A stretch of 43,449 nt of DNA. Origin: a bacterium. Its GTDB lineage: Bacteria > Vulcanimicrobiota > Vulcanimicrobiia > Vulcanimicrobiales > Vulcanimicrobiaceae. Where the stretch lies: assembly GCA_021778415.1 (NCBI GenBank), contig JAJYCL010000025.1, forward strand, positions 1 through 43,449, read 5' to 3'. The notes below the pieces were generated by a model, which saw nothing but the letters and a program-made list of their open reading frames with translations, was not told where the DNA came from and ran no database searches. The position numbers and the translations under genes were made by a program. How positions within the stretch are numbered: position 1 is the stretch's first letter; every line of letters starts with the position of its first letter. Positions 2,499 to 27,175 of this stretch are shown piece after piece.

Positions 2499-3916
2499 AG
2501 CTCGTCGGCCTTGTCGTCGCGATTTTCGGCGCGACCTATATCGCCGGCACGCTTGCGCATCCGTATATCGATGGCGATTTGTTTTGGCAACGCTGGCTCG
2601 GCGAGCACATTTTGCGCACCGGTGAGATTCCCCGAGCGTTAGGCCCCGAAACCTTTGCTGCCGTGGGCGCGCCTTGGCTGCCGCAAGAGTGGCTGTTCTC
2701 AACGCTCTATGCACTTGCCGTGGCCGCGCACGGCGCGTGGTTCTTTCACGCCGCCGTCGGCGCGTGCGTTGCAGCGACGCTCTACATGGTCGCTCGCCGT
2801 ACGACTGCGCATGCTGGGACGCTGGCAAGTGTCGCCGCCGTCGTTCTTTGCGGTATTGCGTTGGATCCATCGCTCGGAGTGCGCGCGCAGGATGTCGGTT
2901 GGCTGTGCTTCGCCGCGTTGTTGAGCATTCTCGACTGGGACGATAATCGCGTATTTTGGGCGGTCCCGCTCGTTATCGTGTGGGCGAATGTTCATGCGAG
3001 TGCCGTTGTCGCCTTGCCGCTTGTTGCCATCGATTTGCTGATAACGCCGCGGCGGGATCCGGGGGTCTTGAAGCGTCGGTTGTTGCTCATGGTCGCCCTG
3101 CTTGGTGCGATCTGCGTTGGACCATTCGGCATCGCGTTACCTATGTACGCCTTGCATTTGAGCGGGAGCCCGATCCGCACCTATATTGTGGAGTGGCAAT
3201 CGTGGGCGTGGTATCGGCCGTCGTTTGTCCTTGTGGTGTTTCCGGTGATCGCAACGCTTGCAGTACGGTTTCGCTGGGCGTTACGACAGCCACGAGAAGT
3301 GCTTCGCGTGGCGCTGTTCATCGCCATGAGTTGCATGGCGATTCGTAATGTCGCGCTGCTCGGTATCGCCGCTGCACCGCTTTTCGCCACGCTGCTCGAT
3401 CCGTGGCTTTCGCGTGTGACCTTCCCGTCGATAAAACTCCAAGAACCCGCGAAGCGGCTGCTCGCAATCGGCGTAGGCGCTGCACTCGTGCTCGTCTTTG
3501 CGTTGAGTTATCGTTTGGCACATGTTCCCAATGGAGGCCGATTGCCGTTTGCGGCCATGCGACGCATCGCCCGACTGCCCGGCGAGCGGCGGCTCTATTG
3601 CACCGATTTCGCTTGGTGTTCGATGTCGTTGGGAGATGTGCGGATGCGAGTTTATCTCGATGGTCGCGCCGACCCATTTCCGTGGCCGGTATGGCGGCGG
3701 TACCTGCGCATTGCTCGCGGCGGTTCACGCGCGGTGACAACTCTACGGCGCATTCGCGCCAATACGGTGATCGCCGGAAAAAATGGCGCGTTAGGAACGA
3801 CTTTGTTGCGGCAAGCGAATTGGCGTCGGGTCTACGTCGGATCGATAAGTGACGTCTTCGTGCGAATCCGCTCGAACGTAAACGTGAGAAGTGCAGCGAC
3901 GAGAAAGCCGACATAA
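2495..3916 (+). CDS. Polytopic membrane protein, GT-C glycosyltransferase-like
   Basis: A 473-residue protein with about ten hydrophobic segments and a soluble C-terminal part. The acidic loop after the first membrane segment (YIDGDLFWQRWLGEHIL, about residues 26-42) is where GT-C-fold lipid-linked sugar transferases carry their catalytic Asp, and the C-terminal block with CTDFAWCSM and VYLDGRADPFPWPVWRRY resembles uncharacterised bacterial GT-C-like proteins. I infer a sugar transferase or relative acting at the membrane; substrate unknown. The start at 2495 overlaps the DUF192 stop (ATGA). The last 85 bases overlap, tail to tail, the end of the permease gene on the other strand, which is unusually long. 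Confidence 0.72.
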   Translation: MKLVGLVVAIFGATYIAGTLAHPYIDGDLFWQRWLGEHILRTGEIPRALGPETFAAVGAPWLPQEWLFSTLYALAVAAHGAWFFHAAVGACVAATLYMVARRTTAHAGTLASVAAVVLCGIALDPSLGVRAQDVGWLCFAALLSILDWDDNRVFWAVPLVIVWANVHASAVVALPLVAIDLLITPRRDPGVLKRRLLLMVALLGAICVGPFGIALPMYALHLSGSPIRTYIVEWQSWAWYRPSFVLVVFPVIATLAVRFRWALRQPREVLRVALFIAMSCMAIRNVALLGIAAAPLFATLLDPWLSRVTFPSIKLQEPAKRLLAIGVGAALVLVFALSYRLAHVPNGGRLPFAAMRRIARLPGERRLYCTDFAWCSMSLGDVRMRVYLDGRADPFPWPVWRRYLRIARGGSRAVTTLRRIRANTVIAGKNGALGTTLLRQANWRRVYVGSISDVFVRIRSNVNVRSAATRKPT

Positions 3917-5217
3917 TACGAGAGGTCGCCGATATGCGGAAACGCACGAGGCATTGGTCCGATGAACCACGTTTGATTCCAAAACGGTACGGATGCAAGT
4001 AAGCCGAGTATCCATGCAGCGGCTCCGCGGCGAAACGCTTGCGGTTTTTCACGATCGGCCTGCTTGTGCATGAAGGCATTGACGAGAATGACTCCGGCCC
4101 AGGGCGATGCCCAGTAGGAAAGCAGCAACAGAAAATTCGCGTAGGAATCCGCCGTATCGCGTGGATTCGCGCCGGCGAGTGCGAGAATCGCACCGATGAC
4201 ACCGACGCCCAAAGCAGCCGACCACCGCGGAATCCGAATGTTAAATGCGACGAGTCCGGCCAATGCACCTGAGTAGAGATTCATGCAATTTGCGGTAATT
4301 GTGCCGAGAACGATGCTGGCGAGGACAAGGCCGGCAACGATTCCATGTGGGCCGAGAAGTGCGGCAATTGCGTCGGTCGGAATCGATGCGGAGAGATCGG
4401 CTTTCGTGAGGGTTACCGTTGCCGCTCCCATGATTTGTAAGGCGATGCATGGGATCGCCGTGCCCGCAAGGCTATACCAAAATACGGCCTTGCGTGATGT
4501 CGCCGCCGGTAAATAGCGCGAGTAATCCGATGCACAAGGTACCCAACCAAGGGCATATGAGAACGATAGCGCCGTTGCAAAGATGAACCCGGCGATTGGG
4601 CCGCCGGATGCAATGGGAGCGAGTGCGTGAAATGGAGTGGACCAATCGACCCGCGAAAACGTGACGACCCCTAGCGTAAGAAAACCCGCAGCTAAGAGAA
4701 TCGCACTGATATGTTCGAAGCGCGCCAATAAATTGTAGCCGTACACGGCGATGATAATTTGTAGCACGAGCATGAAGGCCAACGCTAGCGGGTAGCCGAT
4801 GTGCGCGAGCGTCTCTAACGCATAGGATCCGAAGATCGTATTGATGGCAAACCAGCCCACGCCGGCAAGAAACGACAGCGTCGCCGGAGCAATGTTGGCG
4901 ATTCGCCCCAAGGCAAAACGCGATGCCACCATTTGCGGCACGCCATACCGCGGGCCGAGTGTCGCTAAAACACCCAATACGGCAAAGCCGGCGCAGTTTC
5001 CAAGCACGATGCCGATGAGCGCGCTACGAAGATCGGTTCCGTAAAGCGCGACGATAAAAATGCCGACCATCCACGTGGCAATTTCGGCGTTCGCCGAAAA
5101 CCAGATGCCAAAAAGATCGCGCGGGTTGCCGTGACGTTGCTCGGGGAGAACCGGTTCGATGCCGGTAGGCTCGACGGCGAGGACCTGGTCCCGATACACA
5201 GGTTGCGGTTCGTTCAT
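3832..5217 (-). CDS. NCS1-family permease (cytosine/purine/vitamin type)
   Basis: A 461-residue transporter of the nucleobase:cation symporter-1 family with about twelve membrane segments. The opening block with NPRDLFGIWFSANAEIATWM (about residues 31-50) is diagnostic of the family, whose members import cytosine, purines, allantoin, hydantoins, thiamine or nicotinamide-type compounds. The chosen start overlaps the nicotinamidase stop (ATGA), so the two are co-translated; from this I infer import of nicotinamide or a related pyridine, but the family also fits a nucleobase. An in-frame extension to 5388 lies inside the nicotinamidase gene and is rejected. The last 28 codons overlap the convergent GT-C-like gene. 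Confidence 0.88.
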   Translation of the reverse strand: MNEPQPVYRDQVLAVEPTGIEPVLPEQRHGNPRDLFGIWFSANAEIATWMVGIFIVALYGTDLRSALIGIVLGNCAGFAVLGVLATLGPRYGVPQMVASRFALGRIANIAPATLSFLAGVGWFAINTIFGSYALETLAHIGYPLALAFMLVLQIIIAVYGYNLLARFEHISAILLAAGFLTLGVVTFSRVDWSTPFHALAPIASGGPIAGFIFATALSFSYALGWVPCASDYSRYLPAATSRKAVFWYSLAGTAIPCIALQIMGAATVTLTKADLSASIPTDAIAALLGPHGIVAGLVLASIVLGTITANCMNLYSGALAGLVAFNIRIPRWSAALGVGVIGAILALAGANPRDTADSYANFLLLLSYWASPWAGVILVNAFMHKQADREKPQAFRRGAAAWILGLLASVPFWNQTWFIGPMPRAFPHIGDLSYYVGFLVAALLTFTFERIRTKTSLIDPT

Positions 5218-15628: not shown

Positions 15629-16441
15629 TTGCGCTCCCTCACCGCCAGATACGTCTACGGTCTATGGTTGACCCTCCGAACGGTTGCTACGGCAAACGGG
15701 GAGGGTCAAACTTTTAATCCAGATTTGCCCATCGGGCTGGTGATGGAAAAGTTGGAAAGCGCCACGGCGCGCCCGAGACAAGTGTTTGATGGAAATGACC
15801 TTCACCAGGGATTATTCGCGAAAGTCGCTGCGCTAGGTCACGGCATAGCCGCGAACCATTGTTTTGGCAATGGCAATAAGCGAACATCTTTCCTGGCAAT
15901 GACGCAAGCCTTACATGCCAATGGTTGGTCCTGGAATCCACCGCCGGAGGTCGTTGCGTTTGTCATGCTCAGGATCGCTAGCAATGCGAACCGCATGCAG
16001 GTCTACGAAATTGCGAGTTTTATTGGAACTTATGCTTTCGAGCAACCGAAAGAACCGCGATGGAAGCATGCGTCTGACGGACTAGTCGCTCGTGGAAATG
16101 TGACGGTGGATGGTGAAGATATCTTTCCGATACCGGTTAGCGAGCCGCAAGATTACTATTACAAGATAGCTGTCGCCGTATTTGAGCGCCATAATCATCT
16201 CATAAGCGATGATGAGCGCGCCGAGCTGGCGCGAACGTTTCGCTGGCCTGCTCAAGTTCGAAGCGATATACTTAAATGGTATAACAAAGAGAAATATAGA
16301 AAAAGATATCTCCGTCAGGGTCTTCAGCGCAAACGGACCAAGCGAATCGGCCGGCGCCGCTGTCCACATTTGGGTGGAAGAAGCGTGCCTAAAATTTGCC
16401 GACCGATAACCCGTAAAAAAATGGGGTATCGGACCACTTAG
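15629..16441 (+). CDS. Doc/Fic-family toxin with C-terminal extension, probably frameshifted near its end
   Basis: Doc-type Fic protein. Residues about 37-130 align by eye with death-on-curing proteins: ESATARPRQVFDG, then HGIAANHCFGNGNKRTSFLA with the Fic motif H77-C-F-G-N-G-N-K-R85 (lysine as in Doc kinases, which phosphorylate EF-Tu in the P1 system). Unlike Doc (about 125 residues) it continues for another ~120 residues with no recognised domain. From about residue 222 the annotated frame turns into an Arg/Lys-rich, unnatural-looking tail, while the +1 frame from about 16290 to the TAA at 16407-16409 reads as ordinary protein (ISVRVFSANGPSESAG, AAVHIWVEEACLKFADR). An extra base in the A-rich stretch near 16287-16305 would explain this. 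Start TTG 15629 is the only one keeping the N-terminal Doc helix. Confidence 0.7.
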   Translation: MRSLTARYVYGLWLTLRTVATANGEGQTFNPDLPIGLVMEKLESATARPRQVFDGNDLHQGLFAKVAALGHGIAANHCFGNGNKRTSFLAMTQALHANGWSWNPPPEVVAFVMLRIASNANRMQVYEIASFIGTYAFEQPKEPRWKHASDGLVARGNVTVDGEDIFPIPVSEPQDYYYKIAVAVFERHNHLISDDERAELARTFRWPAQVRSDILKWYNKEKYRKRYLRQGLQRKRTKRIGRRRCPHLGGRSVPKICRPITRKKMGYRTT

Positions 16442-18670: not shown

Positions 18671-19564
18671 ATGAAGAAGTGTTCTCTGCTCCTGCTTTTT
18701 ATCGTTGCACTTGCCCTTGTTGCGAGGAGCGTTTCGGCGCAAACTCCGCCATCGGCCGCGCAATTCTATCTTGCGGCCCTTGATGCCACCAAGCGTCTGG
18801 AGGTGCCGGCATTTGCAACGTATGAGGCAAAAATCCATGCCGTTGGCGCGCAGTTAACGGTCGAGCAAGTGGGCGCTGATAAACAACTCTTGTTTCTTGA
18901 ACAAATTGGCCCTCACGAAAATCCGGATACATCGTATTCGGTTGCATATCGCTCGGATACCGATAGCTCGAATGTCACCGAAGGGAAGAAATTTCTCGGG
19001 CAAACGCGACGGACGATGTTTAATCCGACCTGGCAGGGTGTCTACGATTGGCTTATGTTCGGCCCCGCCGGTGAACCCGAGAGCGCGGTGAAAGCTCGCG
19101 CCGCGCAAGCGAAACTCGCGCCTGTTGCGCCCGCGCCAAAATTGAAAACAATCGCCATCTTAAAGGCGATGGGATCGGCGATATATCACGTTCGGGATGC
19201 GGGCGCGGCCGTTTGCCCGAATGGCGATCCGGGGCACCAGGTGCAGACGATTGCACGACGCGATCCCGAACATCACCCGCTACTTAACGCGACGATCGAT
19301 TTGCACAATGGTGTCTCTTGTTCGTTGCGTTTCCACATCGCAGGATCGGGGCCGATGGTCGGAATTACGGGGTATGCGGAAGAGCATTTTGGAACCGTCG
19401 GGTCCTACTGGATGGCAACCGATGTTCATATCGTCGACGATATTCGCGTCGCCGGAATCGCCGTGCATCACGTGAGCATCGATGTCGCCTATACCGGTAT
19501 GCAGTTTCCTACAAGCCTGCCCGCGCAAGAAATGGTCGTACCGAAAAACGGTGTCCGTCGCTAG
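18671..19564 (+). CDS. Exported protein of unknown function
   Basis: A 297-residue protein with a clear signal peptide (basic MKK, hydrophobic core LLLLFIVALALVA, likely cleavage after VSA at about residue 24). The mature part has no motif that I recognise. An Ala/Pro/Lys-rich linker (about 141-158) separates two regions, and a C-terminal beta-rich half (about 195-297) contains repeated hydrophobic-polar alternation. Its last 56 bases overlap the convergent comEC gene. A periplasmic or surface role is all that can be inferred. Confidence 0.75.
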   Translation: MKKCSLLLLFIVALALVARSVSAQTPPSAAQFYLAALDATKRLEVPAFATYEAKIHAVGAQLTVEQVGADKQLLFLEQIGPHENPDTSYSVAYRSDTDSSNVTEGKKFLGQTRRTMFNPTWQGVYDWLMFGPAGEPESAVKARAAQAKLAPVAPAPKLKTIAILKAMGSAIYHVRDAGAAVCPNGDPGHQVQTIARRDPEHHPLLNATIDLHNGVSCSLRFHIAGSGPMVGITGYAEEHFGTVGSYWMATDVHIVDDIRVAGIAVHHVSIDVAYTGMQFPTSLPAQEMVVPKNGVRR

Positions 19565-21713
19565 TGATTGTGATGGCGCCGTTTTCGTCGGTGCGATAGA
19601 CTCGCGCGTGAACGGATGCAAGCGCTGCAAGCATGCGCGGCGCAGGTTCTCCATAGCGATTGCGCTGCCCGTCGGAAATAATCGCGAATTGCGGTTCGAC
19701 GGCGCTAAAAAAGGCGAGGGACGCAGAGTGCCCGGAGCCGTGATGCGGCACTTTGAGGATATCGGAGCGTAAGGAAACTCCCGATGCCAGCAGCGCCGCT
19801 TCCGCGCGTGCTTCGATATCTCCAGTAAAGAGCATCGAAAAAGATCCGTAGTGCAAACGAAGCACCAGCGAGTTTTCGTCAATGTCCGCTTGGCTGCCAC
19901 GAATCGGATTTGGGAGCGGAGTGAGAAACGTCAGCACAACACCATCGTCGAATCGTAGTTGTTGGCCGGCGAGCGGGTGCAACTCGCGGACATGATGGCG
20001 TGCTGCTGTAGCACGCGCATCGGTGTAGGCCATGCCGCCGTATGTTGCACCGTTGTCGATGAGCACGCCGACCGGAAATGCACGAAGGATTGGCGCCGCT
20101 CCGCCAACGTGATCGCCGTGCGGGTGGGTGAGAATCAGTGCATCGACGCGTTGCACGCCATGACGAAGCAAGAACGGAACGACCGTGCGGTTCCCAACGG
20201 CTTCCGCCGGTGATGCACGCGGATCGCGAACGCCGCGTTCCATGCGGCCCCCTGTATCGATCATCAACGTATGATCACCCGGTGTCTGCACGACAATACC
20301 TTCGCCTTGGCCGACATCGAGCATTGTGATTCGCAGCGTTTCCCCGCTGCGCGGCGTCGGCGCGATCATGCTACAGAACATTGCTAACGGAAGGGCGACG
20401 GCTAGCGTGCGCGCACCGATGCGCCAAACGTGCGGCATCGCAAGCATACTGATGCAATAGCCAACAATGCTCCATGTCGCGGGTTTCGCCAGCCATATCC
20501 GCGCATGTGGAAATCCCGCAATGAGATGGGTGATAAAAAGAGTCCATGCGAGCGGCCAACTCGCAAGCGAACCGAACGTACGTGCTAGCGGCGGAATCCA
20601 GGCAGTCGCGAGAACGAGCGTCCCGCAGAGCATGGAGATGCCGACAAGTGGAACGACAAGCGCGTTGGCAAGCATTGCGTACAGTGAAAAATAGCCGAAG
20701 GTAGCGGCTAGCAACGGCCATGTAAGGGCTTGCGTGGCAATCGTTGCGCCGATTGCTTCGGCAAGACGCGGATGCAAGTGTGCATGATCGCGAAATAGAT
20801 GCGCAAGCGGCGTCGCAAAAGCGAGTAATCCTGCGACGCAGCTAAACGAGATAAGGAACGAGGCGCTGGTAATGGCCGTCGGATCGTAGAGTTCGATAAC
20901 CGCCGCTGCAAGGATGAGAGCGCTCCATGAAAATGCCTGGCGCCCCGTAGCGCGCGCGAGCAGCGCGATGCTCAACATAATTGCTGCACGCAACGTCGGT
21001 AGATGCATCCCGCTCAGGTAGGCGTAGGCCCATAAGACCCCCGTCGTAATAATGCATCCGAGGGCGCGAGGGAGCGTCAGGAGTTCCATCGCAAAGAGCA
21101 ACACGGCAGCAAGCGCGCCGATATGTAATCCGGCGGTAATGAGGATATGGATGGTTCCCGTCGTGGCGAAATCGTCGCGAATGCCCGTTGAAAGATCGCC
21201 GCGTTCGCCATAGAGTTCACCGGCAACGATGCCTGCATACGGTTCGCCGATATCTGCACGTAACAATGCGAGCATCCAACCTCGTAATCGCGCCAGGCGA
21301 TCCGTTACATGAAATCCACTCCGTGGCGGCAAGCGCTGCAACAACGTGGTCGCACTCAAGCGCCCCTCGATGCCGCGCTCTCGAGCTAAAAGTGCCGGGT
21401 CCGGATCGCCCGGATTGCGCGCAGCGCCCATGCTTTCAAGGCGCCCACGTAGACGCAAGCGCTCACCGATTGCGACGTTTGTACGCCAAAGTGTCGCAGT
21501 GACTGTCGGCCCGTTATCGATATGAAACGTAAAGCTCCGTTCGTCGCCTGCGACCCGAAGATCACCGAGAACGGTTCCATTAAAGCGTCCAATAAATTCG
21601 TGTATTGTTGTGGTTAAGACATGGGCGCGAAAGCCCAGGGCGACGCAAAATGCCAGGGTGAGTCCCAGCCACGCGCGAAGCGTTGGCGGCGAGAGCGCAG
21701 CGATGTTCTTCAT
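19509..21713 (-). CDS. comEC: DNA internalization channel protein ComEC/Rec2
   Basis: Membrane channel that passes single-stranded DNA into the cytoplasm during natural transformation. The 734 residues follow the family layout: N-terminal DUF4131/OB region (about 1-130), the Competence domain with about eight to ten membrane segments (about 150-470) and a C-terminal metallo-beta-lactamase domain (about 475-725) containing MLDVGQGEG, LTHPHGDHVGG and VPHHGSGHS, the metal-binding histidines being intact. comEA lies about 5 kb away on the other strand rather than in the same operon. The 3' end overlaps the convergent exported-protein gene by 56 bp. Confidence 0.95.
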   Translation of the reverse strand: MKNIAALSPPTLRAWLGLTLAFCVALGFRAHVLTTTIHEFIGRFNGTVLGDLRVAGDERSFTFHIDNGPTVTATLWRTNVAIGERLRLRGRLESMGAARNPGDPDPALLARERGIEGRLSATTLLQRLPPRSGFHVTDRLARLRGWMLALLRADIGEPYAGIVAGELYGERGDLSTGIRDDFATTGTIHILITAGLHIGALAAVLLFAMELLTLPRALGCIITTGVLWAYAYLSGMHLPTLRAAIMLSIALLARATGRQAFSWSALILAAAVIELYDPTAITSASFLISFSCVAGLLAFATPLAHLFRDHAHLHPRLAEAIGATIATQALTWPLLAATFGYFSLYAMLANALVVPLVGISMLCGTLVLATAWIPPLARTFGSLASWPLAWTLFITHLIAGFPHARIWLAKPATWSIVGYCISMLAMPHVWRIGARTLAVALPLAMFCSMIAPTPRSGETLRITMLDVGQGEGIVVQTPGDHTLMIDTGGRMERGVRDPRASPAEAVGNRTVVPFLLRHGVQRVDALILTHPHGDHVGGAAPILRAFPVGVLIDNGATYGGMAYTDARATAARHHVRELHPLAGQQLRFDDGVVLTFLTPLPNPIRGSQADIDENSLVLRLHYGSFSMLFTGDIEARAEAALLASGVSLRSDILKVPHHGSGHSASLAFFSAVEPQFAIISDGQRNRYGEPAPRMLAALASVHARVYRTDENGAITITSDGHRFSVRPFLARAGL

Positions 21714-21768: not shown

Positions 21769-22713
21769 ATGCGAATGATTGTTACTGGTGGAGCTGGTTT
21801 TATCGGCTCGCACATTGTTGATGCGTACCTTGCGCTCGGCCACGAAGTCTTGGTGCTCGATTCTCTCTGGGAGCATGGCGGCGGTCGCCGCGCCAATGTG
21901 CCGCAAGGGGTGTCATTCGTTCACATGGATGTCCGCGATGCCGGCATCGAACGTATCTTCCGTGAGTTCAAGCCCGATGTGGTGAGCCATCACGCGGCGC
22001 AACATTCCGTTGCAATTTCTTCGCGCGATCCGCACTTCGATGCGGATGTGAATGTCCTCGGGCTGATCAATGTGCTGGATTGCGCCGTCAAGGCTAGCGT
22101 TCGCAAAGTGATTTTCGCTTCAAGTGCCGCAACGTTCGGCGAGATCGAGCGCTTGCCGATCGATGAGAGCACACCGCAGCGCCCAACGTCTCCTTATGGC
22201 ATCACCAAGATGGTCGCCGAGCATTATTTGCGTTTCTTCAAGAACGAAAAAGGCCTCGATTTTACCGCGCTGCGCTACGGCAACGTTTTCGGACCGCGTC
22301 AAGATCCCAACGGCGAAGCCGGCGTCATCTCGATTTTCATTGCGAAATTCTTGCAGAAGCAAGGCGTACGCATCGATTGGGATGGTGAGCAGACCCGCGA
22401 TTATGTCTACGTTAAAGATGTCGCCGCAGCCAATGTCGCCGCATTAGAACGCGGATCGGGAAGTTTTTACTGCATCGGCACCGGCGTGAAAACCTCGGTG
22501 AATCAGCTCTATAAAGCACTCGTGAAGATCAGCGGATTCGAGCCGCCCATCACGCACGGCGAACGCCGCTCCGGCGACGCCCGCGCCGTGCAATACAACA
22601 TCGCCTTAGCCGCCAAAGAGCTGCAATGGAAACCCCAAACCTCGCTCGTCGACGGCATGCAAGCCACCTACGATTATTTCGCCGCCCAACAACCCAAAGA
22701 AGCGGTGTCGTAG
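21769..22713 (+). CDS. NAD-dependent sugar-nucleotide epimerase/dehydratase (GalE-like)
   Basis: Extended short-chain dehydrogenase of 314 residues. The NAD fold GGAGFIGSH is at residues 7-15, the catalytic serine in FASSAATFGE (about 117-126) and the YxxxK pair at Y143/K147 (SPYGITK). RYGNVFGPRQDP and the C-terminal KELQWKPQTSLVDGMQ are typical of UDP-glucose 4-epimerase-like proteins. Substrate specificity is not readable. It stands alone, divergent from comEC; surface polysaccharide synthesis is a fair guess. Confidence 0.92.
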   Translation: MRMIVTGGAGFIGSHIVDAYLALGHEVLVLDSLWEHGGGRRANVPQGVSFVHMDVRDAGIERIFREFKPDVVSHHAAQHSVAISSRDPHFDADVNVLGLINVLDCAVKASVRKVIFASSAATFGEIERLPIDESTPQRPTSPYGITKMVAEHYLRFFKNEKGLDFTALRYGNVFGPRQDPNGEAGVISIFIAKFLQKQGVRIDWDGEQTRDYVYVKDVAAANVAALERGSGSFYCIGTGVKTSVNQLYKALVKISGFEPPITHGERRSGDARAVQYNIALAAKELQWKPQTSLVDGMQATYDYFAAQQPKEAVS

Positions 22714-22783
22714 GCTACGGCCGGTAGGCCGGAAAACGCCAAATTGCCATCGAAGAGTTCGGCCAAGAAAAGAGGGTTCATCG

Positions 22784-23173
22784 ATGGGTAAGATGTTGGC
22801 GATTGCCTTTTCTCTGTGCATAGCGGCCTTTCCGATGACGGCATCGGCGCAGAACCTGTATATCAATTTGCAACGGTTACGCGTCGAGGATAAGAAGCTC
22901 GGTAGCGGATGTGAATTAACCGCGCGAACCAAGTACGACGGGGACAAGATGCGCTGCACCGATCAGGATGCTATGAGTATGTACCACTGGCACAAGATCT
23001 TCCTGAATACGATGTACGGCGCTATGATGCGCACGTGCGAAATTAGTGTGATTAAGGAAAACCACAAGGCCTTTGCCCATCGCTGGCATGCCGTGCTCAC
23101 ACCGGGCAGCGCGAAGTGCCGGATGCATTGGGTCAACGATAATACACTCGATGTGGAGCCCGGCATCCGCTAA
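22784..23173 (+). CDS. Small secreted protein of unknown function
   Basis: A 129-residue protein with a signal peptide (hydrophobic core MLAIAFSLCIAAFPMTA, likely cleavage after ASA at residue 22). The mature part has four cysteines (in GSGCELT, MRCTDQ, RTCEIS and AKCRMH), which could form two disulfides, and several His/Met residues. No known family recognised. It ends 10 bases before the stop of a decayed leuS 3' fragment on the other strand, so it was probably the ancestral convergent neighbour of leuS. Confidence 0.65.
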   Translation: MGKMLAIAFSLCIAAFPMTASAQNLYINLQRLRVEDKKLGSGCELTARTKYDGDKMRCTDQDAMSMYHWHKIFLNTMYGAMMRTCEISVIKENHKAFAHRWHAVLTPGSAKCRMHWVNDNTLDVEPGIR

Positions 23174-23183
23174 CGGAGGGCGC

Positions 23184-23255
23184 TTACGTCGCGACGATGT
23201 TCTCTAGTTTGTTGGGAACGAAGATCATTTCGCGGATTGTCTTTCCTTCAAGGAG
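23184..23255 (-). pseudogene. Decayed duplicate of the leuS 3' end
   Basis: On the minus strand this stretch reads LEGKTIREMIFVPNKLENIV then AT and a TAA stop, against LEGKTIRKVIFVPNKLVNIV, AT and TAA at the end of the intact leuS (24032 onward). By eye the DNA matches at about 60 of 71 positions, most differences at third codon positions, so it is a diverged copy and not a recent repeat. Similarity stops near 23255; no further synthetase sequence follows. The stretch up to 23422 holds nothing else that I can identify. Confidence 0.8.
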
Positions 23256-23422
23256 TACCGGTGGCGCAGGGAATTGTACATGTGTTTGTCAATGCGACCA
23301 CCGTAGGCTATCCCTTGAATTCTACCCAATTCAATAATAGTATCTCGGCTTCCGTGCGCGGCACCTATCACGCTCATGAGTGTTTTGTGAGAAATTTCCA
23401 GTAGCCTAAGACAGGGTAAAAC

Positions 23423-23881
23423 ATGCACCATCTTCTCCTTTCAGCGCTAATTGCGGCTAGCGGTTCGGATGTTCAAACTTCGATAAAGCATGCGACTATT
23501 CAATCGACTTGCGATGGATCCAAAATCGCATACGCAATTGGAACGGGGAACATTTCGCATCGTGGAAATCTAGATACTCCATCGACAAGTGTTATCAATA
23601 TTTGGGCGTTTCTCCCTAACCGTGGCGGCTTTCCAACTGCATGGCTATTTAAGAGAGCCGTTAGCGATTATTATATTCAGTTTGCTCCCCAGGTGCACGC
23701 GAGCACGTTTCGAGATATTGATTTGTACTGGCGCTATTTTCAAAATTCCCATTCGTCTTCTGACGTCGGCCCTTGGGAACCCGTGAAAGTTTCTGCCGAT
23801 CAGATCATTTCAATTGAAAATATTCTTGGTGCGCGCGGAATCGTGCGTTACTCCTGTTTTCTGAGTGATTATCGAATGTAA
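23423..23881 (+). CDS. Orphan protein between two leuS 3' ends
   Basis: A 152-residue protein, not recognised. The N-terminus (MHHLLLSALIAASGS) is a weak signal peptide; the rest is rich in aromatic and Ser residues (for example VINIWAFLPNRGGF and DIDLYWRYFQ) and has two cysteines (CDG, YSCFLS). Base composition is visibly more AT-rich than the flanking genes, suggesting acquisition. It lies within the ~0.8 kb segment bracketed by the intact and the decayed leuS ends. No clear ribosome site (CAGGGTAAAAC precedes the ATG). Its expression is uncertain. Confidence 0.5.
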   Translation: MHHLLLSALIAASGSDVQTSIKHATIQSTCDGSKIAYAIGTGNISHRGNLDTPSTSVINIWAFLPNRGGFPTAWLFKRAVSDYYIQFAPQVHASTFRDIDLYWRYFQNSHSSSDVGPWEPVKVSADQIISIENILGARGIVRYSCFLSDYRM

Positions 23882-24031
23882 CGTCTTCGACGGATCAGGT
23901 AGTCAAAATATATGACAACCTTTTTCGTATGGCTCTTTTGCTTCGCTGTTCGAAATAGGATGGATGTTATCCATCTCGCGCAAAGGCCTTGGCTTAACGA
24001 ACTGCTACAAACGTTCTCTAACTGAGGAAGC
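23882..24031. other. Non-coding remainder of the segment inserted at the leuS 3' end
   Basis: 150 bp without a convincing ORF. It contains a short hairpin GATGGA-TGTTA-TCCATC (23959-23975) between the orphan gene and leuS, too weak to call a terminator because no T run follows on either strand. Confidence 0.3.
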
Positions 24032-26500
24032 TTACGTCGCGACGATGTTGACCAGCTTGTTGGGCACGAAGATCACTTTGCGGATCGTTTTCCCTTCGAG
24101 GGCAGCAATGACGGGTTTTTCGGCGTGAGCTAACGCAAGCGCATCGTCTTCTGAGATACCGGGCGCCGTCGTGATGCGCCCACGAATTTTACCGTTGACT
24201 TGCACGACGAGCGTGATCTCATCGACGTCGAGTGCGCGCGGATCGGGTTCGAGAAATCGTTCGAGATGCACCGATGTGCGGTGCCCGAGGCCTGCCCATA
24301 ATTCTTCGGCAATATGCGGGGCAAACGGCGCGAGCACCAAGGGCAAAGCGGCAATGGCATACAGCGTGCATGGCGAATCGGGCATCGCCGTCGTTGCCGT
24401 AGATAGCGCGTTGAGATATTCATCGAATTTTGCAATCGTCGCGTTGTAATGAAAACGTCGCGAGAGCGTTTCATCGAGCGCGGATTTCACGGCCGTGTGA
24501 ACGGCACGCAAAAGCGCCTTCTCTTCCTTGGTGTTTGCCTGCGGGAAAACACGCACATCGACGTGACTCGCCGCTTGCAGATGCGGCTCGCATAGACGCC
24601 AGACGCGGGCGATAAAGCGAATGCGCCCACTGATGCCATCGTCGTTCCAATCCGACGTATCTTCCGGCGGCGTGACATAGAGTAAAAACAAACGCATCGC
24701 ATCGACGCCGTATTGCTCGGCGATGCGATCGATCCCGATCACATTGCCACGTGATTTGCTCATCTTCTCGCTGTTATACAGCACCATCCCCTGATGGAAG
24801 AGACGTTCAAACGGCTCATCCGTTTCGCCGACCCAGCCTTGATCGTGGAAGAATTTATAAAAGAAGCGTGAGTACAGCAGATGGAGGACGGCATGTTCTG
24901 CGCCGCCGATATATTGATCGACGTTCATCCATTGTTTGGCATTTTCCGGGGCCCATGGCGCGCGGTCGTTCTGCGGATCGAGATAGCGCAAGTAATACCA
25001 CGACGATTCAAAAAACGTATCCATTGTATCGGATTCACGGCGCGCCGGGCCGCCGCATTTCGGGCACGTCGTTGTGATGAATTCCGGCATACGCGCCAGT
25101 GGCGAGCCTTCACCGGTAATCGGTGCTCCACTTGGCAACATGATCGGTAACTGCTTATCGGGAACCGCAAGTTCTCCGCATTGCTCGCAGGTGAGAATCG
25201 GAATCGGCGTGCCCCAATAGCGTTGGCGCGAAACCAACCAATCGCGCACGCGATAGTTGACGCGCACCTGCCCGAGACCGCGCGATGTCAGTGACGCGGT
25301 GATCGCTTTGCGCGCCGCAGCCGATGTCATCCCCGAGAACTCTCCGCTGGCAACGAGAACACCATCGTCGGTGAATGCTGCATCCTGTACCTGCTCTGCT
25401 TTTTGCTCGGTAGGCAGGACGACATACGAAATTGGAAGTCCGTAGGTCTGCGCAAACACGAAATCGCGTTCGTCGTGCGCGGGGACACCCATCACAGCGC
25501 CGGTTCCGTATTCAGCGAGAACGTAGTTCGTGACCCAAATGGGAACGCGTTCACCGGAAAGTGGGTTCGTCGCATAGGCACCCGTGAAGATCCCTTGCTT
25601 TTCCATGAGACTCGTGCGCTCGAGCTCGGATTTGGATTTCAGACTTTCGCCGAATGCAACAATTGCTGCCGCCGTCGCCGGCTCAAGCGTTGGTAATAGC
25701 GTTGCAACGAGCGGATGTTCTGCGGCGATCGCGAGAAACGTGACGCCGAATGCCGTATCGACGCGCGTGGTAAAGACATCGATGCTCGCATCGCAGGATT
25801 CGACGAAAAACGAAAATTGCGTTCCTTCGCTGCGCCCGATCCAGTTTCGCTGCATCGTTTTCGTGCGTTCCGGCCATCCGGGGAGTTTCTCGAGATCATT
25901 GAGCAAGCGATCCGCGTAGTCGGTAATTTTGAGGAACCACTGCGATAGATTACGTCGTTCGACCAGCGAATTGCAGCGCCAGCAGCGCCCATCAATGACT
26001 TGTTCGTTCGCTAAAACGGTTTGATCTTGCGGGCACCAATTCACCGGCGCTTCGCGCTTATACGCGAGGCCCGCTTCGTACAAGCGTAAAAACAGCCACT
26101 GATTCCAGCGATAATACTCGGGCGTACACGTGGCAATTTCGCGCGACCAATCGTAGCCCGTGCCCATCAGGCGCACTTGGCGTTGCATGTTCGCGATATT
26201 CGATCGGGTCCAATCGCCGGGATCGATGTTGCGGGCAATCGCTGCATTTTCAGCGGGAAGGCCGAACGCATCCCAGCCCATCGGATGCAGCACATCATAA
26301 CCGAGCATGCGCATCATGCGCGCAATGGCATCGCCGATCGTGTAATTTTTTGCATGGCCGACATGCAGATCGCCGGATGGGTACGGCAACATTTCAAGCA
26401 CGTAATATTTCTGCCCGGCTGCAGTGGTGCGGTAGGTCTTCTCGGTCTCCCAGCGCTGCTGCCAGCGCGCCTCGACGGAGCGGAAATCATAATCGGCCAT
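24032..26500 (-). CDS. leuS: Leucyl-tRNA synthetase
   Basis: Class I aminoacyl-tRNA synthetase, 822 residues, bacterial type. The ATG at 26500 gives the usual N-terminus (YDFRSVEARWQQRWE), with the HIGH-type motif HVGH at 46-49 and GWDAFGLPAENAAI just after. CP1 editing domain lies at about 220-415 (LTTR-like FTTRVDTAFGVTFL, and GVPAHDERDF), KMSKS is intact in EKMSKSRGNVIG near residue 580, and the C-terminal domain ends with GKTIRKVIFVPNKLVNIV. The reading frame stays open past the start into the antisense of comEA; this is rejected. A second, decayed copy of its 3' end lies at 23184-23255. Confidence 0.97.
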   Translation of the reverse strand: MADYDFRSVEARWQQRWETEKTYRTTAAGQKYYVLEMLPYPSGDLHVGHAKNYTIGDAIARMMRMLGYDVLHPMGWDAFGLPAENAAIARNIDPGDWTRSNIANMQRQVRLMGTGYDWSREIATCTPEYYRWNQWLFLRLYEAGLAYKREAPVNWCPQDQTVLANEQVIDGRCWRCNSLVERRNLSQWFLKITDYADRLLNDLEKLPGWPERTKTMQRNWIGRSEGTQFSFFVESCDASIDVFTTRVDTAFGVTFLAIAAEHPLVATLLPTLEPATAAAIVAFGESLKSKSELERTSLMEKQGIFTGAYATNPLSGERVPIWVTNYVLAEYGTGAVMGVPAHDERDFVFAQTYGLPISYVVLPTEQKAEQVQDAAFTDDGVLVASGEFSGMTSAAARKAITASLTSRGLGQVRVNYRVRDWLVSRQRYWGTPIPILTCEQCGELAVPDKQLPIMLPSGAPITGEGSPLARMPEFITTTCPKCGGPARRESDTMDTFFESSWYYLRYLDPQNDRAPWAPENAKQWMNVDQYIGGAEHAVLHLLYSRFFYKFFHDQGWVGETDEPFERLFHQGMVLYNSEKMSKSRGNVIGIDRIAEQYGVDAMRLFLLYVTPPEDTSDWNDDGISGRIRFIARVWRLCEPHLQAASHVDVRVFPQANTKEEKALLRAVHTAVKSALDETLSRRFHYNATIAKFDEYLNALSTATTAMPDSPCTLYAIAALPLVLAPFAPHIAEELWAGLGHRTSVHLERFLEPDPRALDVDEITLVVQVNGKIRGRITTAPGISEDDALALAHAEKPVIAALEGKTIRKVIFVPNKLVNIVAT

Positions 26501-26575
26501 AGAGATGCTTGGAATAGTATGCTCCTTGAACGAACCCCTTGTCGCCAGGCTCCAACGACGTGATGGAAGGGTACT

Positions 26576-27175
26576 ATGAAGAAGCCCATTCTGATCATCG
26601 GGGCGGTGGCCGTCGTGATCGCCCTCGCCGCGTTTCACGCTCCAGCTCCTCGGACCGATCTCCAGAACGCCCCCCATAATCGCCCTCGACGTAGCCCGAT
26701 TCCTCACGCGACGGTGCGTCCGACGATGCTCGTCTACGTCGCAGGCGAGGTCCGGCACCCCGGCCTCTATCGCATCCTCCCCGGGCAGCGGGCCTCCGAT
26801 GCTGTGAACCAGGCCGGCGGCTTCACCAGCGGAGCCGATCGAGCAGGGGTGAACTTGGCCGCCCCGCTCAACGACGGCGATGAAGTGCGCGTGCCGGGAA
26901 CCGCGCACGCACGCCGACGTTCTTCCGGGATTACCCATGCTAGAAAACCCAAGCGCAAGCGTGGTCCCCGTCGCGCGGCAACGGCGCCTATCGATTTGAA
27001 CACCGTTGATGCAGCCTCGCTGCAAGCGATCCCGGGGATCGGCCCAACGCTGGCGCAGCGAATTATCGCCTACAGACGTCTCAATGGGCCGTTCGTTTCT
27101 GTTGATGGTTTACTCGACGTGGCGGGATTTTCTCCGGCAAAACTGGATCGCATTGCGCCCTTTGTCCGTGTTTGA
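26576..27175 (+). CDS. comEA: Competence DNA receptor ComEA
   Basis: Membrane-anchored DNA-binding protein of natural transformation. Of 199 residues, about 4-22 form an N-terminal membrane anchor, 50-105 a SLBB-type domain (VYVAGEVRHPGLYRILPGQR), then a basic linker rich in Arg/Lys, and 137-199 two helix-hairpin-helix motifs (IDLNTVDAASLQAIPGIGPT and LLDVAGFSPAKLDRIAPFV). GGAAGG precedes the ATG. It is divergent from leuS and is followed 50 bases on by the acyl-CoA ligase; comEC is 5 kb away. Confidence 0.94.
   Translation: MKKPILIIGAVAVVIALAAFHAPAPRTDLQNAPHNRPRRSPIPHATVRPTMLVYVAGEVRHPGLYRILPGQRASDAVNQAGGFTSGADRAGVNLAAPLNDGDEVRVPGTAHARRRSSGITHARKPKRKRGPRRAATAPIDLNTVDAASLQAIPGIGPTLAQRIIAYRRLNGPFVSVDGLLDVAGFSPAKLDRIAPFVRV

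Follow-up and report, generated by a model that had tools for sequence, protein, structure and literature searches.

A second, decayed leuS 3' end beside an orphan gene in Candidatus Eremiobacterota: a probable insertion-duplication by homologous recombination with donor DNA

Background

Genomic islands that are integrated into the 3' ends of genes by integrases leave behind an intact gene, the insert, and the displaced old end of the gene. The locus described here, which lies at the 3' end of the leucyl-tRNA synthetase gene (leuS) of a bacterium from an uncultured phylum, has this same architecture, and it also resembles systems in which integrases play no part. The leuS/dam (drg) locus of Neisseria is the published precedent, a minimal mobile element (PMC4269198, PMC3082526); as in the present locus, differing cassettes lie between two conserved genes and low-GC cargo sits beside leuS. 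The Neisseria locus has no recombinase, and in the present one no integrase is found in the insert. In Helicobacter, insertion with long target duplication has been described (Nobusato 2000, cited in PMC1643837), and, as far as that citing account goes, both there and here an insert is flanked by direct target repeats of tens to hundreds of bp. Finally, homology-facilitated illegitimate recombination, a RecA-dependent process known in transformable bacteria, typically yields a product in which recipient DNA is deleted (PMC3240628). As in this process and in single-crossover integration, the DNA entering in the event proposed below would be homologous to the recipient at one side and not at the other.

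The window and its genes

The window, meaning the whole stretch of 43,449 nucleotides that was analysed, belongs to a 2.59-Mb draft assembly (G000; 61 contigs, 96% complete). Its closest named relatives by LeuS (73% identity) are Candidatus Eremiobacterota assemblies, and a scan of genome contigs found no LeuS above this identity; the relatives compared with G000 are other species and genera of its family. The genes around leuS occur in the order comEC (-), epimerase (+), a 129-aa gene (+), the leuS-end remnant (-), a 152-aa orphan (+), leuS (-), and a comEA-like gene (+) (Table 1). No tRNA gene is found in the window and no RNA family at 22600-24200, and promoter- and terminator-like sites show no excess over shuffles. 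(Away from the leuS junction, a Fic-domain match is present at 15740-15913 inside a 270-aa open frame.)

Table 1. Features of the leuS junction and its surroundings (window coordinates)
Feature	Position	Strand	Evidence or remark
comEC, DNA-uptake channel gene (context)	19509..21713	-	Pfam Competence E 4.5e-50
NAD-dependent epimerase, conserved convergent leuS neighbour in the family	21769..22713	+	family synteny
129-aa gene between epimerase and remnant	22784..23173	+	weak relatives only
Displaced and decayed leuS 3' end, reads LEGKTIREMIFVPNKLENIVAT and stop	23170..23253	-	direct repeat, codon comparison, unfit residues relative to family LeuS ends
Inserted segment between the two leuS-end copies, GC 0.455	23254..24017	.	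764 bp
152-aa orphan (passenger gene) with a hydrophobic N-terminus, running convergently with leuS	23423..23881	+	nothing in NCBIfam or PADLOC; Pfam without a family above cut-off
Repeated leuS 3' end, resident copy (last 22 codons with stop codon and the 14 bp after it)	24018..24101	-	direct repeat with 23170-23253, 83%
leuS, leucyl-tRNA synthetase, 823 aa, intact	24032..26503	-	Pfam LeuRS editing, catalytic and anticodon domains; syntenic in the family
comEA-like gene, SLBB and HHH_3 domains (context)	26576..27175	+	adjoins leuS in nearly all relatives

The displaced leuS end

A sequence-only reading of this DNA had claimed a second copy of the leuS 3' end, and this copy is real: it forms with the resident end a direct repeat of 84 nt that is 83% identical (start-to-start distance 848 bp; blastn self-match E = 2e-18), and no direct repeat family reported from the entire 43-kb window is longer. 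Its extent, which had been put at about 24 codons with about 11 differences in 71 bases, has to be corrected. The repeat comprises the last 22 leuS codons, the stop codon, and 14 bp beyond the stop, with 11 differences in the 66 coding nt and 3 in the 14 nt past the stop; the remark that the differences fall mostly at third codon positions stands (8 of 11). The same reading correctly described the segment between the copies as AT-richer (GC 0.455, versus 0.57 for the window) and as holding one orphan gene.

Upstream of the repeat, the residual similarity of the remnant to leuS is at shuffle level, and in a tblastn search with LeuS only residues 802-823 match. The remnant is thus a truncated 3' end rather than a leuS gene that has decayed over its full length; continuation as a degraded full leuS, which had been named as a sign of simple duplication, is not seen. 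The leuS end reads LEGKTIRKVIFVPNKLVNIVAT and stop, and the remnant LEGKTIREMIFVPNKLENIVAT and stop. In family LeuS ends, the K of the RK pair is almost always K or R, and the third changed site is occupied by L, V or I but in no case by E. It is therefore the remnant that holds the unfit residues, and the copy farther from the body of leuS is the decayed one. These features also bear on whether the arrangement could be an assembly artefact, in which the leuS ends of two strains were joined in a chimeric contig, as might happen in a draft assembly of 61 contigs. The remnant, cut at codon 802 with no leuS beyond it and changed at conserved residues, is not a second strain's working end, and a like scar is found in another family genome (G026, below) on an 818-kb contig. 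Such an artefact is therefore highly improbable.

Both copies share the residues VPNKL, which occur in no relative, and an -AT end, which occurs in one. This indicates that the copies are close kin, and that any donor would have been close kin as well. The differences between the copies that exchange GC and AT lean from GC to AT towards the remnant (7 versus 2).

The orphan and the 129-aa gene

The 152-aa orphan is low in GC, has a hydrophobic N-terminus, and is patchily distributed, with homologues (E < 0.001) in 3 of 98 other family genomes, in each case away from leuS. It finds no match among phages, plasmids, or IMG/VR, and searches of Pfam, NCBIfam, PADLOC, folds, and the PDB returned nothing reliable about its function. 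An assignment to Colicin_D was rejected (the match has E = 0.07 and does not reach the curated cut-off, and mean pLDDT over the fold is 57).

The stop codon of the remnant lies 10 bp from that of the 129-aa gene, as had been noted. This gene had been taken for the original convergent neighbour of leuS, but in relatives the conserved neighbour is the epimerase. The 129-aa gene is probably an earlier insert. The G000 junction holds two layers, one being the 129-aa gene and the other the orphan together with the additional leuS end.

The leuS-epimerase junction across the family

By gene coordinates, 65 family genomes carry leuS and the epimerase as a convergent pair on a single contig. The two genes abut in 14 of these, with stop codons overlapping by 4 nt in 6, and are separated in the other 51 by 0.2-30 kb, mostly of genus-specific genes. 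In the LeuS tree, G004, G025, and G034, which are outgroups to the G000 clade, are empty at the junction, filled and empty junctions are intermixed within the clade, and the genus g37 has both states (39 bp in G036, 2.6 kb in G092). The cargo varies by genus and, as named from the sequences, includes a short-chain dehydrogenase, an FAD monooxygenase, a methyltransferase-like gene, and many singletons; on the other side of leuS, comEA is kept nearly always. The convergent leuS-epimerase junction is probably a tolerated exchange site. The comparison with relatives that the sequence-only reading had proposed comes out in favour of insertion, since both the empty site and different inserts at the same junction are present in other genomes; relatives that lack the insert and still keep a remnant apart from an intact leuS, which would have spoken against integration, were not seen. 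(A related FAD monooxygenase-like gene is located at this junction in five genera, g10, g12, g30, g36, and g37, and a sister genome of g37 is empty there.)

The repeated leuS end is absent from the other inserts examined, and 49 of the 51 filled junctions contain no displaced end. Homologous insertion-duplication would consequently be one route of entry among others.

Displaced gene ends elsewhere in the family

A displaced leuS end is also present in G026, whose junction of 30 kb lies on an 818-kb contig (G026:C3:666500-698500; L260, L261). Here the displaced end is positioned 8 kb from leuS (63 bp, 89%) and is preceded by about 20 more codons that contain a deletion and a frameshift. Two displaced epimerase ends, of ~270 and 50 codons, accompany it, so that three epimerase 3' ends and two leuS 3' ends occur at this one junction. 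A Doc/Fic gene and an antitoxin-like ORF lie between epimerase copies 1 and 2, a HEPN gene lies between copies 2 and 3, and PemK, PIN, and TumE genes are found near leuS. Epimerase copy 1 is a mosaic: its body is that of copy 2 (1 difference in 441 nt) and its end is that of copy 3 (0 in 141 nt). Compared over the end, copies 1 and 2 have a pS of 0.18. The displaced-leuS-end scar in G026 arose independently of that in G000. The G026 junction also carries polysaccharide genes, and a 53-bp repeat of its TumE gene starts exactly at the leuS stop codon.

Scars of the same form involve other genes (the transporter and aminotransferase names below are given from sequence). In G032:C28 (L212), the 3' end of an orphan homologue is duplicated at 90% identity around a convergent Fic gene that PADLOC calls SoFic-like (1306-1475 / 2972-3144). 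In G113:C224 (L267), about 97 codons of a DctM-like transporter 3' end surround a convergent Fic gene (614-905 / 2296-2587), and this pair of ends has 28 synonymous versus 6 nonsynonymous differences. In G083:C116 (L381), it is a displaced and internally deleted aminotransferase-like 3' end that lies around a convergent Fic gene (1146-1216 / 4132-4202). In these scars the target gene stays whole, and, counted post hoc, 7 of 7 have their cargo in convergent orientation. Of the Fic loci sampled, 2 of 70 are bracketed by displaced gene ends, against 0 of 30 methyltransferase loci; since these numbers are small and a search for Fic brought up two of the scars, no toxin enrichment is claimed, and the toxin link is no more than a lead. 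No further displaced gene ends of this kind were recognised in 672 kb sampled from G000, where a direct repeat of any sort brackets 4 of 400 random places.

Two further loci show repeats around toxin-type genes. In L302 (G091:C59), part of a PIN-type toxin gene is repeated on either side of a PemK gene (1069-1174 / 2783-2888), and in L384 (G084:C5) a tRNA-like 3' end is repeated on either side of a Fic gene (1444-1494 / 3054-3105), perhaps as a small tRNA-targeted island. The tRNA-like end of L384 and a dispersed repeat (L378) were set aside as other phenomena.

These comparisons bear on the proposal that the leuS 3' end was the attachment site of an integrative element, which would have supplied a new end for the gene and in time have shed its integrase, until one gene was left. 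A whole gene, a low-GC insert, and a displaced end are what such islands leave, and the two leuS ends of G000 have in common an identical 20-nt run that contains the palindrome CGTCGCGACG. A run of this length is, however, expected by chance in 22% of such repeats, and the leuS-end repeat is missing from the other inserts examined. The breakpoints vary (22, ~38, 50, and ~270 codons) and fall in different, unrelated genes, which is not how a site-specific recombinase behaves. The insert in the window contains no integrase, and none (PF00589) lies within the leuS-epimerase junctions of relatives among the matches listed; nor was any literature found on leuS as an integration site with an attB and an integrase. 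Site-specific integration is therefore quite unlikely, and homologous recombination with donor DNA explains the scar better. Of the earlier suggestion, the integration scar itself is upheld by the empty site, the other inserts, the decayed displaced end, and the independent scar in G026, while the element with leuS as its attachment site is not supported: no integrase is found in the insert or, among the matches listed, in the junctions of relatives, the breakpoints are not shared, and other genes are scarred as well.

Divergence between resident and displaced ends

Over six pairs of resident and displaced ends, pS is 0.27 and pN is 0.036; for the G000 pair alone, the values are 0.47 and 0.07. 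A model of in situ duplication followed by decay predicts that ~40% of the changes would be synonymous. The observed pairs depart from this prediction with P ~3e-5 over the six pairs (lenient settings), 3e-6 for G113, and 0.016 for G000 alone, the last value resting on 11 changes. Divergence that is mostly synonymous argues that the differences built up while each end belonged to a functional gene in a cell of its own, before the two were brought together.

This result weighs against two accounts in which both ends come from one genome. In the first, the leuS end was duplicated in tandem with neighbouring DNA, and the second copy of the neighbour decayed and was lost. The close kinship of the two copies and the lean of their differences from GC to AT towards the remnant, as in decay, would agree with such a course. 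It requires, however, a further deletion with its endpoint 14 bp past the displaced stop. The composition of the insert is foreign, relatives lack it at their junctions, and the synonymous excess also runs against a tandem duplication, which we regard as unlikely. In the second, the insert entered a staggered break in leuS, and repair duplicated the 84-bp target with no leuS sequence from a donor. Flanking direct repeats of this size range are, in the account of Helicobacter cited above, what this process leaves. Copies made in this way would be identical at birth and would diverge as under duplication and decay, whereas both the mosaic in G026 and the bias towards synonymous changes point to donor alleles that had already diverged, and this course is very unlikely.

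A proposed mechanism

Taken together, the sequences make it probable that the G000 junction arose by homologous insertion-duplication, in which donor DNA carried a diverged leuS 3' end and the convergent orphan. In the simplest reaction, DNA from a close relative would have recombined by homology inside the resident leuS with an additive outcome, so that leuS is complete once more, ending in one of the two 3' ends and followed by the passenger; the second, 5'-truncated leuS end, free of selection, would then have decayed beyond the passenger. The donor may have been a circle that integrated through a single crossover (Campbell type), or a fragment that was homologous at one end and joined illegitimately at the other. 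Either of the two leuS ends may be the donor's, and any assignment would be conjectural. A circle and a single crossover would yield the whole gene, the cargo, and the truncated end with no loss of recipient DNA; since the usual homology-facilitated illegitimate recombination deletes recipient DNA, which is here duplicated, a single-crossover variant is proposed.

RecA and natural transformation may have been the agents. G000 has ComEC, a ComEA-like gene, and two DprA-family hits, and Ku is absent from it; this set fits transformation rather than Ku-type end joining, with DNA uptake predicted from the genes.

A wider and rather doubtful generalization would be that this Eremiobacterota family sustains a recurrent, recombinase-free traffic in units that consist of a gene 3' end and convergent cargo. 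The captured end would serve as a portable homology arm, the target would be made whole on entry, and the cargo, often of toxin type (Doc, Fic, HEPN, PemK), could leave by recombination between the ends.

The locus shows, in an uncultured phylum, how genes that lack a recombinase can enter the chromosome beside an essential gene without harm, and in the displaced 3' end the insertion step has left a trace that can still be read. As leuS ends are exchange sites in this family and in Neisseria alike, conserved genes whose 3' ends are permissive may in general be able to act as homology arms. Searching for displaced 3' ends is simple, and they could mark such events across genomes.

Comparison with known systems

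Compared with islands driven by integrases, the scar has no integrase, no fixed crossover, and no shared attachment core in other leuS junctions: a site-specific recombinase is found neither in the window insert nor, among the matches listed, within sister junctions, and in place of a constant crossover core there are repeats of different lengths in different genes. Compared with homology-facilitated illegitimate recombination, it has a duplication instead of the usual deletion. Like the long target duplications of Helicobacter, it has an insert bracketed by repeats and, in relatives, an empty site with one copy; in its own copies the differences are mostly synonymous, a pattern that speaks for a diverged donor end and for two alleles, rather than one recipient target, as the source of the repeat.

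As at the Neisseria leuS/dam locus, two conserved genes flank the site, here leuS and the epimerase in 65 family genomes, and different whole-gene cassettes occupy it between species and genera. Homologous incorporation in the flanking genes is supported by the synonymous divergence and by the G026 mosaic, the latter being evidence from outside the G000 junction. The pair here is leuS-epimerase, it is convergent, and it belongs to Eremiobacterota; the comparison is between species and genera and not, as for Neisseria, between strains; and the cargo in the window is an orphan where Neisseria has a restriction or methylation gene. The window is probably a further example, in another phylum, of a minimal mobile element, or of insertion with long target duplication.
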